DNA of 64,000 nt from an uncultured Pelagibacteraceae bacterium (GTDB taxonomy: Bacteria; Pseudomonadota; Alphaproteobacteria; Pelagibacterales; Pelagibacteraceae): assembly GCA_902517535.1 (NCBI GenBank), contig CABYCK010000003.1:1-64000 (forward strand), written 5' to 3'. The position numbers and the translations under genes were made by a program. Numbering within the stretch: position 1 is the stretch's first letter; each line of letters opens with the position of its first letter. A model generated the notes under the pieces. The model ran no database searches and was not told the DNA's origin. It saw nothing but the letters and a program-made list of their open reading frames with translations. Positions 3,842-8,958 of this stretch are shown piece after piece.

Positions 3842-4414
3842 CTATCTAGGAGATCTTTTAGAGAGTATTCTTTGCAAAGTTCTTCTATGCATTTTTAAAC
3901 GTCTCGCAGTTTCAGAAACATTACGATTGCACAATTCAAATACCCTATGAATATGTTCCCATTTTACTCTGTCTGCTGACATGGGGTTTTCAGGAGGGGT
4001 AGCTTTGGACTCAGGGGCAGCAAGCAAAGCTGCTTCTACATCATCTGCATCTACAGGTTTAGCCATATAGTCTATAGCTCCTGCTTTCACAGCTGCCACA
4101 GCAGTAGGTAAATTTCCATATCCGGTTAACATCACTATTCTGCAGTCTTTTTTGTTAACATGTAGCTCTTTTACAACATCAAGACCATTTCCATCTTCTA
4201 ATCTTAAGTCCACTAAAGCAAAGCTGGGAGGATCGTTTTTGACTATTTGCAGGCCTTCTGTCACCGTTTTAGCCTCTTTTACCGTAAAACCCTTCTTTTC
4301 CATGGCTCTTGAGAGTCTGCCTCTTAAAGGGTCATCATCGTCTAATATAAGAAGAGATTTATCAGAAAAATCTGACAAATTTAGTTGTTTTGGATAAACA
4401 TTTCGGGCTACCAT
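3842..4414 (-). CDS. regA: RegA/PrrA/ActR family global response regulator
   Basis: Receiver with LLILDDDDPLRGRLSRAM and ALVDLRLEDGNGLDVV; Fis-like HTH NRNVSETARRLKMHRRTLQRILSKRSPR, strongly conserved in RegA/ActR. Confidence 0.93.
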   Translation of the reverse strand: MVARNVYPKQLNLSDFSDKSLLILDDDDPLRGRLSRAMEKKGFTVKEAKTVTEGLQIVKNDPPSFALVDLRLEDGNGLDVVKELHVNKKDCRIVMLTGYGNLPTAVAAVKAGAIDYMAKPVDADDVEAALLAAPESKATPPENPMSADRVKWEHIHRVFELCNRNVSETARRLKMHRRTLQRILSKRSPR

Positions 4415-4484
4415 AAAAAACTATATATGCACTATAATCGTAATTTCAACTGATAAATCCAAATTTTTTTCTTTACATAAAGTT

Positions 4485-4543
4485 AAAAAAACCTTAAACG
4501 CGACTAAATAAGGTTTTTTTTATCAAAATTTTTTAAAAACCTT
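4485..4543 (+). promoter_or_regulatory. Leader with two mutually exclusive hairpins upstream of the decarboxylase gene (attenuator/riboregulator candidate)
   Basis: A=4485-4496 (aaaaaaacctta) is perfectly complementary to B=4509-4520 (taaggttttttt). Part of B (4510-4518, aaggttttt) is also perfectly complementary to C=4535-4543 (aaaaacctt). TATAAT occurs at 4433-4438. Confidence 0.4.
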
Positions 4544-4571
4544 TTGTGTAAACTAAAGAGGAACACATGCA

Positions 4572-5750
4572 ATGCGAAAATTTAAAGACGTTAACGAACT
4601 AGTTAATGAGCTAAAACCTGATTACCCCGTATATTGCATACGGACTGATTCTATAAAAAAGTCTACAAAGTTCTTTAAAGATAAATTCCCAGGTAAGGTT
4701 TTATACGCAGTTAAAACTAACCCTAATGAAAAAGTAATCAAACAAATCATTTCTAATGGTATTCAAGATTTTGATGTTGCGTCTCTTAATGAAATTAAAC
4801 TGATAAAGAAAATTAAAGCAGACTCAAAATTATATTTTATGCATACTGTAAAAAGTAAAGAAAGTATTTCTTCTGCTTATTTTGATTATGACGTAAAAGA
4901 TTTTGCATTAGATAATAAAGATGAGTTAAGAAAAATACTAGAGGCAACAAATCAAGCTAAAGATTTAAATTTATATGTTAGAATTGCTATTTCAAATGAA
5001 CATGCTGAAATAGATTTATCAAGAAAATTTGGTGCGCTGCCCTCTGAAGCTCTTGGACTTGTAAGACTGTGTAGAGAACATGCTAAGAAACTTGGTATTA
5101 GCTTTCATGTTGGTTCTCAGTGTATGCATAAAATTTCATATTCTAAAGGTATAAGTGAAGTCGGAAATATTATAAAAAAAACAAAAATAATTCCTGATAT
5201 AATAAATGTTGGAGGTGGTTTTCCATCAGTTTACCCTGATTTAAATCCTGAGCCACTAAATAATTATTTAGATGAGATAAAAAAATCTTTAAAAAATTTA
5301 AAGCTGCCAAAATTGCCTGAAATTATTTGTGAGCCAGGAAGAGCTATCGTAGCCGAAAGCGGTTCAACAATTGTAAAAGTAATATTAAGAAAAAAACAAA
5401 ATATTTATATAAATGATGGAACTTACGGTTCTTTATTTGATGCAGGAGTCCCAAATTTTGTATTGCCAACAAAGATGATTACAAACGGAAGAATTCTTTC
5501 TAAGAAATTGACACCATTCAGCTTTTTTGGACCTACTTGTGATAGTCTGGATTATATGAAAGGTCCTTTTTTATTGCCGAATAATATTAAAGAAGGAGAT
5601 TATATTGAATTAGGACAATTGGGAGCTTATGGATTAACTTTTAGAACAAAATTTAATGGCTTTTATTCAGATGAAATTTACGAATTAAATGATAAACCAA
5701 TAATGTCTTTATATGAGGATACAAGTAAGGTTGATTACTTGGTTGCTTAA
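4572..5750 (+). CDS. Fold-III PLP-dependent ornithine/lysine (possibly arginine) decarboxylase
   Basis: PLP-lysine motif LYAVKTNPN, HVGSQ, NVGGGFPSVYPD, CEPGRAIVAESG, and ODC-like GPTCDSLDYM. Confidence 0.9.
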   Translation: MRKFKDVNELVNELKPDYPVYCIRTDSIKKSTKFFKDKFPGKVLYAVKTNPNEKVIKQIISNGIQDFDVASLNEIKLIKKIKADSKLYFMHTVKSKESISSAYFDYDVKDFALDNKDELRKILEATNQAKDLNLYVRIAISNEHAEIDLSRKFGALPSEALGLVRLCREHAKKLGISFHVGSQCMHKISYSKGISEVGNIIKKTKIIPDIINVGGGFPSVYPDLNPEPLNNYLDEIKKSLKNLKLPKLPEIICEPGRAIVAESGSTIVKVILRKKQNIYINDGTYGSLFDAGVPNFVLPTKMITNGRILSKKLTPFSFFGPTCDSLDYMKGPFLLPNNIKEGDYIELGQLGAYGLTFRTKFNGFYSDEIYELNDKPIMSLYEDTSKVDYLVA

Positions 5751-6799
5751 TGACAAAAAAAAGTGGTCCTAATATCGGACATAATAAAAAATCATTTTTA
5801 AACAATCCAGTTGAACACATAGATATTACCTCTTTTGACTCGAGGAAAATAATTGAGGGAATGAGCAAAATGTCCTTTACCTCTAGGGACACTGCTAATG
5901 CTGCAAAAATTTATAATGAAATGATATCGGATGAAAATTGTTCAATTTTTTTAACTATTGCTGGTTCTACTTCTGCCGGTGGCTGTATGGATCTTTACTC
6001 AGACTTAGTAAAATACAATATGGTGGATGCTATAGTGGCTACAGGAGCCTCTATAATTGACATGGATTTCTTTGAGGCTTTAGGGTTCAAACACTACCAA
6101 GGATCTCAATTTCAAGACGATACTGAATTAAGAAAAAATTATATAGATAGAATTTATGATACATATATTGATGAAGAAGAACTTCAAGCATGTGATCAAG
6201 CTATTTGTGATGTTGCAAATTCTATGAAACCTAAAGCTTATACTTCAAGAGAATTCATTCAAGAGTTAGGCAAATTCTTAAAAAAAAATTCTAAAAAGAA
6301 AGGTTCTTTAATTGAAACAGCTTTTGATAATAATGTACCTATTTTTTGTCCAGCGTTTACTGATAGTTCTGCTGGTTTTGGTCTTGTTATGCATCAAGAG
6401 CAAAATCCCGATAAACATATAACAATAGATTCGATTAGGGAATTAAGAGAATTAACAGAAATAAAAATAAAATCTAAACAATCTGGCCTATTAATGGTGG
6501 GTGGAGGAGTGCCTAAAAATTTTGTTCAAGATACTGTCGTTTGCGCGGACCTTATAGGTAAGCAAGTTGATATGCATAAGTATGCAATTCAAATTACTGT
6601 AGCAGATACTAGAGATGGAGCGTGTAGTAGCTCAACATTAAAAGAGGCTAGCTCTTGGGGAAAAGTAGACATCGCAAAGGAACAAATGGTTTTTGCTGAA
6701 GCGACAAGTGTCTTACCTTTAATTGCAAGTGACGCCTATCATCGTCAAAATTGGAAGAATAGAAAAAAAAGAAATTTTTCTCAAATATTTAAATCTTAA
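5750..6799 (+). CDS. Deoxyhypusine synthase-like protein (bacterial; likely homospermidine synthase or a related aminobutyl/aminopropyl transferase)
   Basis: LTIAGSTSAGG, MVDAIVATGASIIDMDFFEALG, and the catalytic-Lys motif EASSWGKV (Lys305) as in the DHS family. Overlaps the decarboxylase stop codon by 1 nt. Confidence 0.9.
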   Translation: MTKKSGPNIGHNKKSFLNNPVEHIDITSFDSRKIIEGMSKMSFTSRDTANAAKIYNEMISDENCSIFLTIAGSTSAGGCMDLYSDLVKYNMVDAIVATGASIIDMDFFEALGFKHYQGSQFQDDTELRKNYIDRIYDTYIDEEELQACDQAICDVANSMKPKAYTSREFIQELGKFLKKNSKKKGSLIETAFDNNVPIFCPAFTDSSAGFGLVMHQEQNPDKHITIDSIRELRELTEIKIKSKQSGLLMVGGGVPKNFVQDTVVCADLIGKQVDMHKYAIQITVADTRDGACSSSTLKEASSWGKVDIAKEQMVFAEATSVLPLIASDAYHRQNWKNRKKRNFSQIFKS

Positions 6800-7681
6800 A
6801 TGAATTACTTAAGCCAAAAAAAAGGTTTTCTTGGTTATGATGCAAATTATAAAATTGAAAACAAAGTAGTAGTAGTTCCTTTTGGTTTAGAAAAAACTGT
6901 AAGCTATGGTGGAGGGACTAAAAATGGTCCTAAGGAAATAATTAATGCATCTCACCAAGTTGAATTATTTGATGAAGAATTAAATAAAGAACCATACAAA
7001 GAAATTGGCATTAAGACTATCAAACCATTTCCTATAAAAAAAACAATTAATTCTGCGCTAGATCAACTATCTAAGATTAATGAAAAAGTAATTTCAAATC
7101 AAAAATTTCCACTAGTTTTTGGTGGAGAGCATTCTATTACACCAGGGGCTATAAAGCCATTTGTTAAAAAGTACGATCAATTAACTATTCTACATTTTGA
7201 TGCACATGCTGATTTGAGAGAAAGTTATAACGGAGAAAAATTTTCTCACGCATCTGCAATTAAAAGATGTTTAGATTACAATAATGTTAATGTTGTATCC
7301 TTTGGTATAAGAAATCTATCGCAGGAAGAAATGAGATATTATGAAAAAAATAGAGATAGAATTGAAATTTTTTGGAGCATGGATAGAAAAAATTGGGATT
7401 TAAATAAACTAGAAAAATTTTTTGGTGGTAAAAATGTTTATATTACTTTTGATGTGGATTGTTTCGACTCAAGTATAATGCCTGCTACAGGCACGCCTGA
7501 ACCAGGAGGTCTATTGTGGGATGATATTTTGCCGATAATAAAAAAGGTCTGCCAAATAGGTAATATAGTAGGTGCAGATATAAATGAGTTAGCTCCTATA
7601 AAAAATTTTAACTCATATAATTTTTTAGTAGCAAAATTAGCTTATAAAATTTTATCTTATACTTTTGAATTTAAGAATTAG
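6800..7681 (+). CDS. speB: Agmatinase / ureohydrolase family protein
   Basis: Mn-ligand motifs GGEHS, HFDAHAD and FDVDCFDSSIMPATGTPEPGG. Confidence 0.9.
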   Translation: MNYLSQKKGFLGYDANYKIENKVVVVPFGLEKTVSYGGGTKNGPKEIINASHQVELFDEELNKEPYKEIGIKTIKPFPIKKTINSALDQLSKINEKVISNQKFPLVFGGEHSITPGAIKPFVKKYDQLTILHFDAHADLRESYNGEKFSHASAIKRCLDYNNVNVVSFGIRNLSQEEMRYYEKNRDRIEIFWSMDRKNWDLNKLEKFFGGKNVYITFDVDCFDSSIMPATGTPEPGGLLWDDILPIIKKVCQIGNIVGADINELAPIKNFNSYNFLVAKLAYKILSYTFEFKN

Positions 7682-8958
7682 GTTAAATCATTAGTGTTCC
7701 ATGTAATGACTACTGAAGCACCCTTTAATTTTATATCTTTAGAAAAATACAAGTTTGCAGATTCTCTTTCTAAAAGAGTTTTGCCTAAAAAAGTACCTAA
7801 TCCTGTCCCTGAATTAGAGCTGACTTGCATTGATTTAGATTTTATATACGGCTCACCTATTATTTCAATAATATCTTCAGGAAATCCAGGTCCGTCATCA
7901 TTTATCTTAATCTGTATTTTTTTATCATCGCTTGTTAAAATGATTTCTACTCGACTTTTAGAAAATTTAATTGAATTACCAATAAAATTTCTAAGTCCAT
8001 AAATTAATTCCGGTGTTCTTTGAAAATTAAAATCACTTTTGTTATCTTCAGCAATTAAAATAATTTCTTTAGAGGAAGTTTCTCTAAAAGAAATAAGTAT
8101 TTCATTTAATAAATTCTCTAAATTGGTTTTGTTAAAGAATTTATCTTCCTTAATTTGTTTTTTTGATATTTTTTTAAGTATCTCTCCACATCTCTTTGAT
8201 TGGCTTATTAACAAATCAATATCTTTTGAATATTCTTTATTATTTCCAATTTCTTTTTTAAGTTCAGTAGCAACAACACTAATGGTTGCAAGAGGAGTGC
8301 CCAATGAGTGGGCTGCTGCTGCAGCTTGACCACCTAAAGACTCTAATTCATATTCTTTTGCTATAACCTGCTGTAACTTACTGACAGCATCAGACCTCCT
8401 TTTGCTTTCACCTGAAAATCTTACACCAAAGTAACTCAAAAATACCAAACCAACAATAATCGCTAAAAAGTATCCTGTTAAATATAATTTAGGGAAAGTT
8501 ACTGAGGAGTCATGAATTCCTGGTAAAGGAAAATGAAAAATTGTTAATAAAAATAAAAAAAATATTGTTAAAATTCCTAAAACGATAGTTGTTCCCATAC
8601 TTAAAAATGTTGAAGAAACTATTGTTGGAATAATCATTAATATAGAGAAGGGATTTGAAATACCTCCGGTTAAATAAAGAAGTAAAGTAAGTTGAATTAA
8701 ATCATATATTAAAAATAAACTAGCGTAAAAATCTTTCAATTGAATAGATTTAATTCTAAATTGTAAAAAAAGATTTGTGCAGAGACCTATTGAAATAACA
8801 ATATAAGCTAATACAATAGGCAATTCTAATTTAAGAAAAAAATAAACCAAGTTTATTGCTATAAACTGGCCAAATATTGCGATCCATCTTAAAATTACTA
8901 ATGTTTTTCTATCTAAATTAAGATTTTCTCCTAATCTAAAAAGAGTAGAAATGTTCAT
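7678..8958 (-). CDS. regB: RegB/PrrB/ActS redox sensor histidine kinase
   Basis: N-terminal TM helices, quinone-site motif GGISNPF, H-box AAAAHSLGTPLATI, conserved-looking Cys in SQSKRCGEIL, ATPase motifs NDDGPGFP and GTGLGTFLGKTL. Confidence 0.92.
   Translation of the reverse strand: MNISTLFRLGENLNLDRKTLVILRWIAIFGQFIAINLVYFFLKLELPIVLAYIVISIGLCTNLFLQFRIKSIQLKDFYASLFLIYDLIQLTLLLYLTGGISNPFSILMIIPTIVSSTFLSMGTTIVLGILTIFFLFLLTIFHFPLPGIHDSSVTFPKLYLTGYFLAIIVGLVFLSYFGVRFSGESKRRSDAVSKLQQVIAKEYELESLGGQAAAAAHSLGTPLATISVVATELKKEIGNNKEYSKDIDLLISQSKRCGEILKKISKKQIKEDKFFNKTNLENLLNEILISFRETSSKEIILIAEDNKSDFNFQRTPELIYGLRNFIGNSIKFSKSRVEIILTSDDKKIQIKINDDGPGFPEDIIEIIGEPYIKSKSMQVSSNSGTGLGTFLGKTLLERESANLYFSKDIKLKGASVVITWNTNDLT

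Follow-up and report, generated by a model that had tools for sequence, protein, structure and literature searches.

Gene clusters in which a homologue of deoxyhypusine synthase (DHS) is encoded beside a decarboxylase and a guanidine-removing enzyme, either an agmatinase-family ureohydrolase or the pair of agmatine deiminase (AIH) and N-carbamoylputrescine amidase (NCPAH), are known from several prokaryotes. One such cluster, three genes at positions 4572–7681 of the window, that is, the whole 64,000-nucleotide stretch of DNA analysed, is the subject of this study. The closest characterized system is that of Thermus thermophilus, in which the caldomycin synthase CdmS (TTHA1570), described in 2024, joins two agmatines; CdmS used agmatine, not putrescine or spermidine, and together with the ureohydrolase SpeBap, which finishes the route, gave homospermidine in vitro (PMC10981699).

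Clusters of the same type as that in the window were published for Ca. Pelagibacter ubique and Ca. Fonsibacter ubiquis as ornithine decarboxylase (ODC)/arginine decarboxylase (ADC)–DHS/SpeY clusters, with an arginase/agmatinase homologue or AIH plus NCPAH; there, the DHS is given as a homospermidine synthase of the putrescine type, and the decarboxylases alone have assay data in the accessible part of the report (PMC9992855). Likewise, the SpeDA–SpeY–SpeB (or AguA/AguB) clusters of varied bacteria and archaea combine an ADC, a DHS homologue and a guanidine-removing enzyme, but the decarboxylase there is pyruvoyl-dependent and derived from S-adenosylmethionine decarboxylase (PMC10407285), whereas that of the window is a pyridoxal phosphate (PLP) enzyme. 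In Haloferax volcanii, transfer of the agmatine moiety by DHS is proposed to come first and the agmatinase-like HVO_2299 to act after it, with the protein aIF5A as acceptor (PMC5178350), while the acceptor here would be a second agmatine. Zymomonas mobilis, whose major polyamine is sym-homospermidine, has a decarboxylase and DHS-like operon (ZMO1020–ZMO1019), but its AIH and NCPAH genes lie in another operon, and its pathway was proposed, not assayed (PMC8594446).

The cluster and its decarboxylase

The cluster very probably constitutes an arginine-to-homospermidine operon. In the proposed pathway, the decarboxylase would convert L-arginine to agmatine, as shown for its homologues. The DHS-like enzyme would use its bound NAD to oxidize one agmatine at the amine end, retain the 4-guanidinobutyl moiety as an imine with Lys305 and transfer it to a second agmatine, and reduction of the bond would yield caldomycin, the place of this step in the order being uncertain. 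The ureohydrolase would then remove the two terminal guanidino groups as urea, forming first N1-aminobutylagmatine and then homospermidine, and may also convert agmatine to putrescine for spermidine synthesis. The cluster with its ADC and the caldomycin pathway are already published; new are the predicted assignment of the DHS-like protein of Pelagibacterales (SAR11) to the caldomycin synthase subfamily, the comparison of its named residues with those of Thermus, and the finding that the guanidine-removing module has been exchanged repeatedly.

The window is part of contig C3 in an 865 kb genome that is 78% complete, relatives of the same order having genomes of 1.0–1.5 Mb. Its gene content, and the match of the cluster to the published Pelagibacter and Fonsibacter clusters, point to SAR11, a group that ranks among the ocean's most abundant bacteria. 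All three genes are on the forward strand: the decarboxylase (4572..5750; 392 aa), an alanine racemase-fold (fold III) PLP enzyme with matches to PF02784 (E 1.2e-36) and PF00278; the DHS-like NAD-dependent transferase, assigned to the CdmS subfamily (5750..6799; 349 aa; PF01916, E 1.9e-95); and the agmatinase-family ureohydrolase (6800..7681; 293 aa; PF00491, E 2.7e-60). The first two overlap by 1 nt and the last two abut with a 0-nt gap. The list of open reading frames and the Pfam matches thus bear out the preliminary description of this DNA, which had reported three tightly spaced frames, in coordinates, strand, spacing and families.

The window decarboxylase is almost certainly an ADC, because the assayed homologues from such clusters accepted arginine alone and the genome yielded no second PF02784 protein. 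In detail, the ‘ODC’ homologues of Pelagibacter and Fonsibacter were active on L-arginine and inactive on ornithine and lysine (PMC9992855). The window protein was compared with the homologues of two genomes (G009, 68%; G054; 66–68% identity); both have AIH-type clusters with the layout of the published Fonsibacter cluster. In the genome, it was the sole match to PF02784; given the genome's incompleteness, this result has to be read with the caveat that a lysA would match too, yet none was found. In ornithine decarboxylase, the specificity helix carries an acidic residue (YDH in the Selenomonas enzyme); at this place, the window protein has a shorter loop, with the aligned segment FDAG-VPNF. 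If the decarboxylase is an ADC, its pairing with an agmatinase is not redundant. The preliminary description had argued that an ODC beside an agmatinase would be redundant and that the decarboxylase might take arginine; this agrees with the homologue assays (PMC9992855), the substrate of the window enzyme itself being predicted from its relatives.

Subfamily and active site of the DHS-like protein

The DHS-like protein scored 566.7 bits against NF002699, the caldomycin synthase family (cut-off 500), and its next-best other DHS family reached 300 against a cut-off of 434. Both NF001980 (homospermidine biosynthesis protein; presumably the SpeY family, from its name) and the deoxyhypusine synthase family TIGR00321 remained below their cut-offs (186.8 vs. 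450 and 231.5 vs. 304.25 bits, respectively). The orthologue of Thermus arciformis, which scored 541 bits against NF002699, was 53.7% identical to the window protein over 335 residues; its gene and that of the ureohydrolase are on different contigs, whereas the two abut here. In contrast, the SpeY of Cylindrospermum is only 27–33% identical to CdmS (PMC10981699). SpeY of Anabaena and Cylindrospermum is reported to be a DHS homologue of the putrescine type with a role in homospermidine synthesis, and forms a separate subfamily. The earlier assumption that such bacterial homologues form homospermidine out of putrescine is based on SpeY, a subfamily other than the one to which the window protein is assigned.

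With CdmS residues numbered from the catalytic Lys, six of the seven named residues are kept in the window protein: Ser67, Glu136, Asp143, Phe204, Glu293 and Lys299 are matched by Ser73, Glu142, Asp149, Phe210 (codon 6377..6379, forward strand as for all codons below; human DHS Asp243), Glu299 and Lys305, respectively. The sole change is Leu286 to Cys292 (6623..6625; human DHS Asp316), and all seven are kept in the T. arciformis orthologue. The named agmatine-site residues of CdmS derive from a docking model, not from mutants (PMC10981699). Alignment confirmed that the catalytic Lys305 of the SWGK motif (6662..6664; human Lys329) is retained and that the segment at the position of human KHHIAN reads KNFVQD (residues 256–261; 6515..6532), with Asn257 at the place of human His288. 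The preliminary description had read this segment correctly, but it is no peculiarity of the window protein: it is a motif of the whole subfamily, KNFAQD in Thermus, and its Gln and Asp are invariant in all 108 alphaproteobacterial relatives aligned. The Asp-to-Phe and Asp-to-Leu replacements were also considered as a specificity marker and rejected, since archaeal DHS has Leu at the human Asp316 position as well; Leu286 of CdmS is thus not diagnostic.

Exchange of the last module and the order of steps

Matches to NF002699 were found in 90 of the 147 genomes of the order, all within the family of the window, and the clusters with a readable downstream end were counted (89, one contig ending too early). 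The ureohydrolase was third in 51 of the 89, in the order decarboxylase–DHS–ureohydrolase. The same order occurred in unrelated alphaproteobacterial families as well, with identities of approximately 40–52, 65–71 and 52–57% for the decarboxylase, DHS-like protein and ureohydrolase, respectively; in one of these nine cases (G477), the decarboxylase match was not directly upstream within 1.5 kb. Being kept in 51 of 89 clusters and in unrelated families, the gene order is not due to chance.

Homospermidine is the end product whichever step comes first. Coupling of two agmatines before urea removal is tentatively preferred, with close to an even chance of being correct. The subfamily, the residues and the association with an ADC rather than an ODC favour it, as judged from sequence comparison, and a comparable pattern is published for SpeD-derived decarboxylases, of which the ADCs are mostly found beside speY and the ODCs in clusters of other pathways (PMC10407285). 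It was placed slightly ahead because a relative tested by experiment, approximately 54% identical and sharing the named residues, was inactive on putrescine. The earlier proposal that the DHS-like enzyme acts on a guanidino substrate and the ureohydrolase after it thus has an exact precedent in CdmS plus SpeBap and is supported by family membership, but is opposed by the exchange within the operon.

Several observations weigh against coupling first. In 38 of the 89 Pelagibacteraceae clusters, the ureohydrolase's place was taken by two genes, for an NCPAH homologue and then an AIH homologue (e.g., locus L105). On the DHS tree, at least 11 switches of module were counted within the family and 14 with other alphaproteobacteria, the numbers being approximate because many branches of this gene tree are weak. 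Between the two kinds of module, the named active-site columns of the DHS were the same, except for one Met for Phe. The known route of AIH and NCPAH leads from agmatine to putrescine, and we know of no report of either acting on caldomycin. Since their known route is that from agmatine to putrescine, the exchange weighs toward putrescine as the substrate of coupling, and most simply means that the guanidine is removed from agmatine before coupling. Cys, instead of the Leu of CdmS, occupied position 292 in all 108 relatives, and certain AIH relatives in sphingomonads are retained in genomes that lack an NF002699 DHS (G157, G271). In addition, SAR11 cells contain putrescine without added polyamines, 16 µM in HTCC1062 (PMC8437039).

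The strongest rival is accordingly that the ADC forms agmatine, the ureohydrolase (or AIH plus NCPAH) converts it to putrescine, two molecules of which the DHS-like enzyme couples to homospermidine, a pathway with somewhat less than an even chance. Besides the repeated swap beside an unchanged DHS and the putrescine detected in cells, it has the support of publication for the Pelagibacter cluster (PMC9992855), and of the proposal for Zymomonas (PMC8594446). However, putrescine was no substrate for the Thermus member of the subfamily, and the window protein is far closer to it than the putrescine-type SpeY is. Further, if putrescine were the substrate, direct pairing with an ODC would be expected in some genomes, but in a sample of the class none of the 24 other genomes over the NF002699 cut-off lacked an agmatine-processing gene: 13 have an operon ureohydrolase and the other 11 encode an AIH, at any genomic position. 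The 13 ureohydrolase genomes yielded no AIH (Fisher 4e-7, kinship not corrected for), an unlinked PF00491 protein was present in 3 of the 11 AIH genomes, and AIH homologues are in any case frequent across the class (128 of 387). Joint absence of both modules was checked genome-wide in part, shorter loci showing a 1.5 kb flank.

The substrate of the AIH and NCPAH homologues is itself not certain, because their scores (G038, G009) are below the curated agmatine-specific cut-offs, at approximately 250 of 382 and 305 of 410, respectively. The AIH tree contained one clade almost exclusive to NF002699 genomes and a second mixed with genomes without the DHS, and it was set aside as an arbiter of the order of steps. 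Genome G402 is the sole one without an over-cut-off NF002699 match whose AIH (L209) falls in the near-exclusive clade, and carries a distant, weak DHS homologue instead (L063). A search for DHS residues tracking ureohydrolase vs. deiminase was likewise abandoned, no position setting the two substrates apart and the most divergent columns lying outside the named active-site positions; in the sister pair G128/G132, the DHS differed mainly in the C-terminal tail.

Caldomycin, in the literature examined, is reported from Thermus only. That SAR11 makes it as an intermediate or stored product, and that in many strains the AIH/NCPAH-like pair strips it to homospermidine, is conceivable, the balance being rather against it; if true, this stripping would be a new activity for the pair. 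HTCC1062 natively contains spermidine and some homospermidine and HTCC7211 spermidine alone, and the 2021 study judged the DHS-like gene (dys2) not to be mainly a homospermidine synthase and left its role unassigned (PMC8437039). Its listed polyamine panel included neither caldomycin nor aminobutylagmatine, so a guanidino product may have escaped detection. Should agmatine prove to be the only substrate of the subfamily, the SAR11 and other alphaproteobacterial genes would be wrongly labelled SpeY. As the family of the middle enzyme couples two agmatines ahead of urea removal, the published sequence of reactions may be incorrect.

Dys2 was considered a multi-substrate enzyme in the same study, and homospermidine and spermidine rose after norspermidine was given to HTCC7211 (PMC8437039), as would fit a DHS-like enzyme that takes agmatine, putrescine and other diamines, giving homospermidine, aminobutylagmatine or spermidine by supply, or that degrades imported polyamines. 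Such mixed specificity is improbable, as CdmS used agmatine only (PMC10981699), the active-site columns are nearly invariant, and SpeE, not Dys2, was favoured for spermidine breakdown by the same authors (PMC8437039).

Replacing a urea-releasing enzyme with an ammonia-releasing deiminase/amidase pair bears on the nitrogen economy of cells that mostly lack urease. Among 80 Pelagibacteraceae genomes, urease alpha was over the cut-off in 10 of 45 of the ureohydrolase type vs. 0 of 35 of the deiminase type (Fisher 0.004); all ten belong to one genus, and the association is suggestive only.

The ureohydrolase and the surroundings of the cluster

The ureohydrolase is agmatinase-like, not arginase-like, by its family scores: it exceeded the cut-off of agmatinase TIGR01230 (203.4 vs. 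174.3 bits) and stayed below those of arginase TIGR01229 (rocF; 96.1 vs. 227.6) and the E. coli-type agmatinase subfamily (120 vs. 302). Its metal-ligand motifs GGEH, DAHAD and FDVDCFD are intact, and it lacks the amino-acid-binding loop of arginases, a stretch of the SGNxHG type that the Thermus arginase-like protein has. The Thermus SpeBap-like protein (L039) also passes TIGR01230 (218), so this family does not separate agmatine from caldomycin as substrate. Both proteins read SHA at a stretch that is HG in E. coli SpeB, guanidinobutyrase and arginase-like proteins; on the tree, the SAR11 enzyme formed its own clade, neither a SpeBap nor an E. coli SpeB grouping being supported. No other PF00491 match was found in the genome.

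A linear three-enzyme pathway without redundancy would also result if the ureohydrolase converted arginine to ornithine, the decarboxylase then made putrescine and the DHS-like enzyme homospermidine, PF00491 including arginases. This is very improbable and was discarded in view of the family scores, the lack of the arginase loop and the decarboxylase assays, in which ornithine was not used (PMC9992855); NCPAH plus AIH, moreover, would not substitute for an arginase. Equally improbable is that the ureohydrolase is an unrelated neighbour salvaging the agmatine that SAR11 imports (PMC8437039), given its fixed position and tight spacing, the order kept across families, and its exchange only for another guanidine-removing pair.

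A response regulator gene (3842–4414) and a sensor kinase gene (7678–8958), both on the reverse strand and recognized by domain matches, flank the operon and are RegA/RegB-like by eye (3842–8958); two-component genes also border AIH-type clusters at loci L102 and L105. gyrB, dnaN and dnaA, named from their translations, are nearby. The leader, 87 nt before the decarboxylase start, contains a 12-bp perfect inverted repeat, AAAAAAACCTTA/TAAGGTTTTTTT, followed by a T-run (4485–4521), which is possibly an attenuator or a two-way terminator. Eight genomes of the genus have it, with loops that vary and in clusters of either module type; among 100 shuffled versions of the window, no such 12-bp repeat with a T-run occurred, and an Rfam scan of the window gave no match.

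Two further DHS homologues were observed elsewhere. In another alphaproteobacterium (L064:1501-3870), a very distant one (25% identity) adjoins agmatinase-like and spermidine-synthase-like open reading frames, a second, separate DHS–ureohydrolase pairing. On a Trichormus variabilis plasmid (L036:7998-9041), an NF002699 member of 591 bits, with no decarboxylase or ureohydrolase annotated nearby, lies beside rocD and iron-transport genes.
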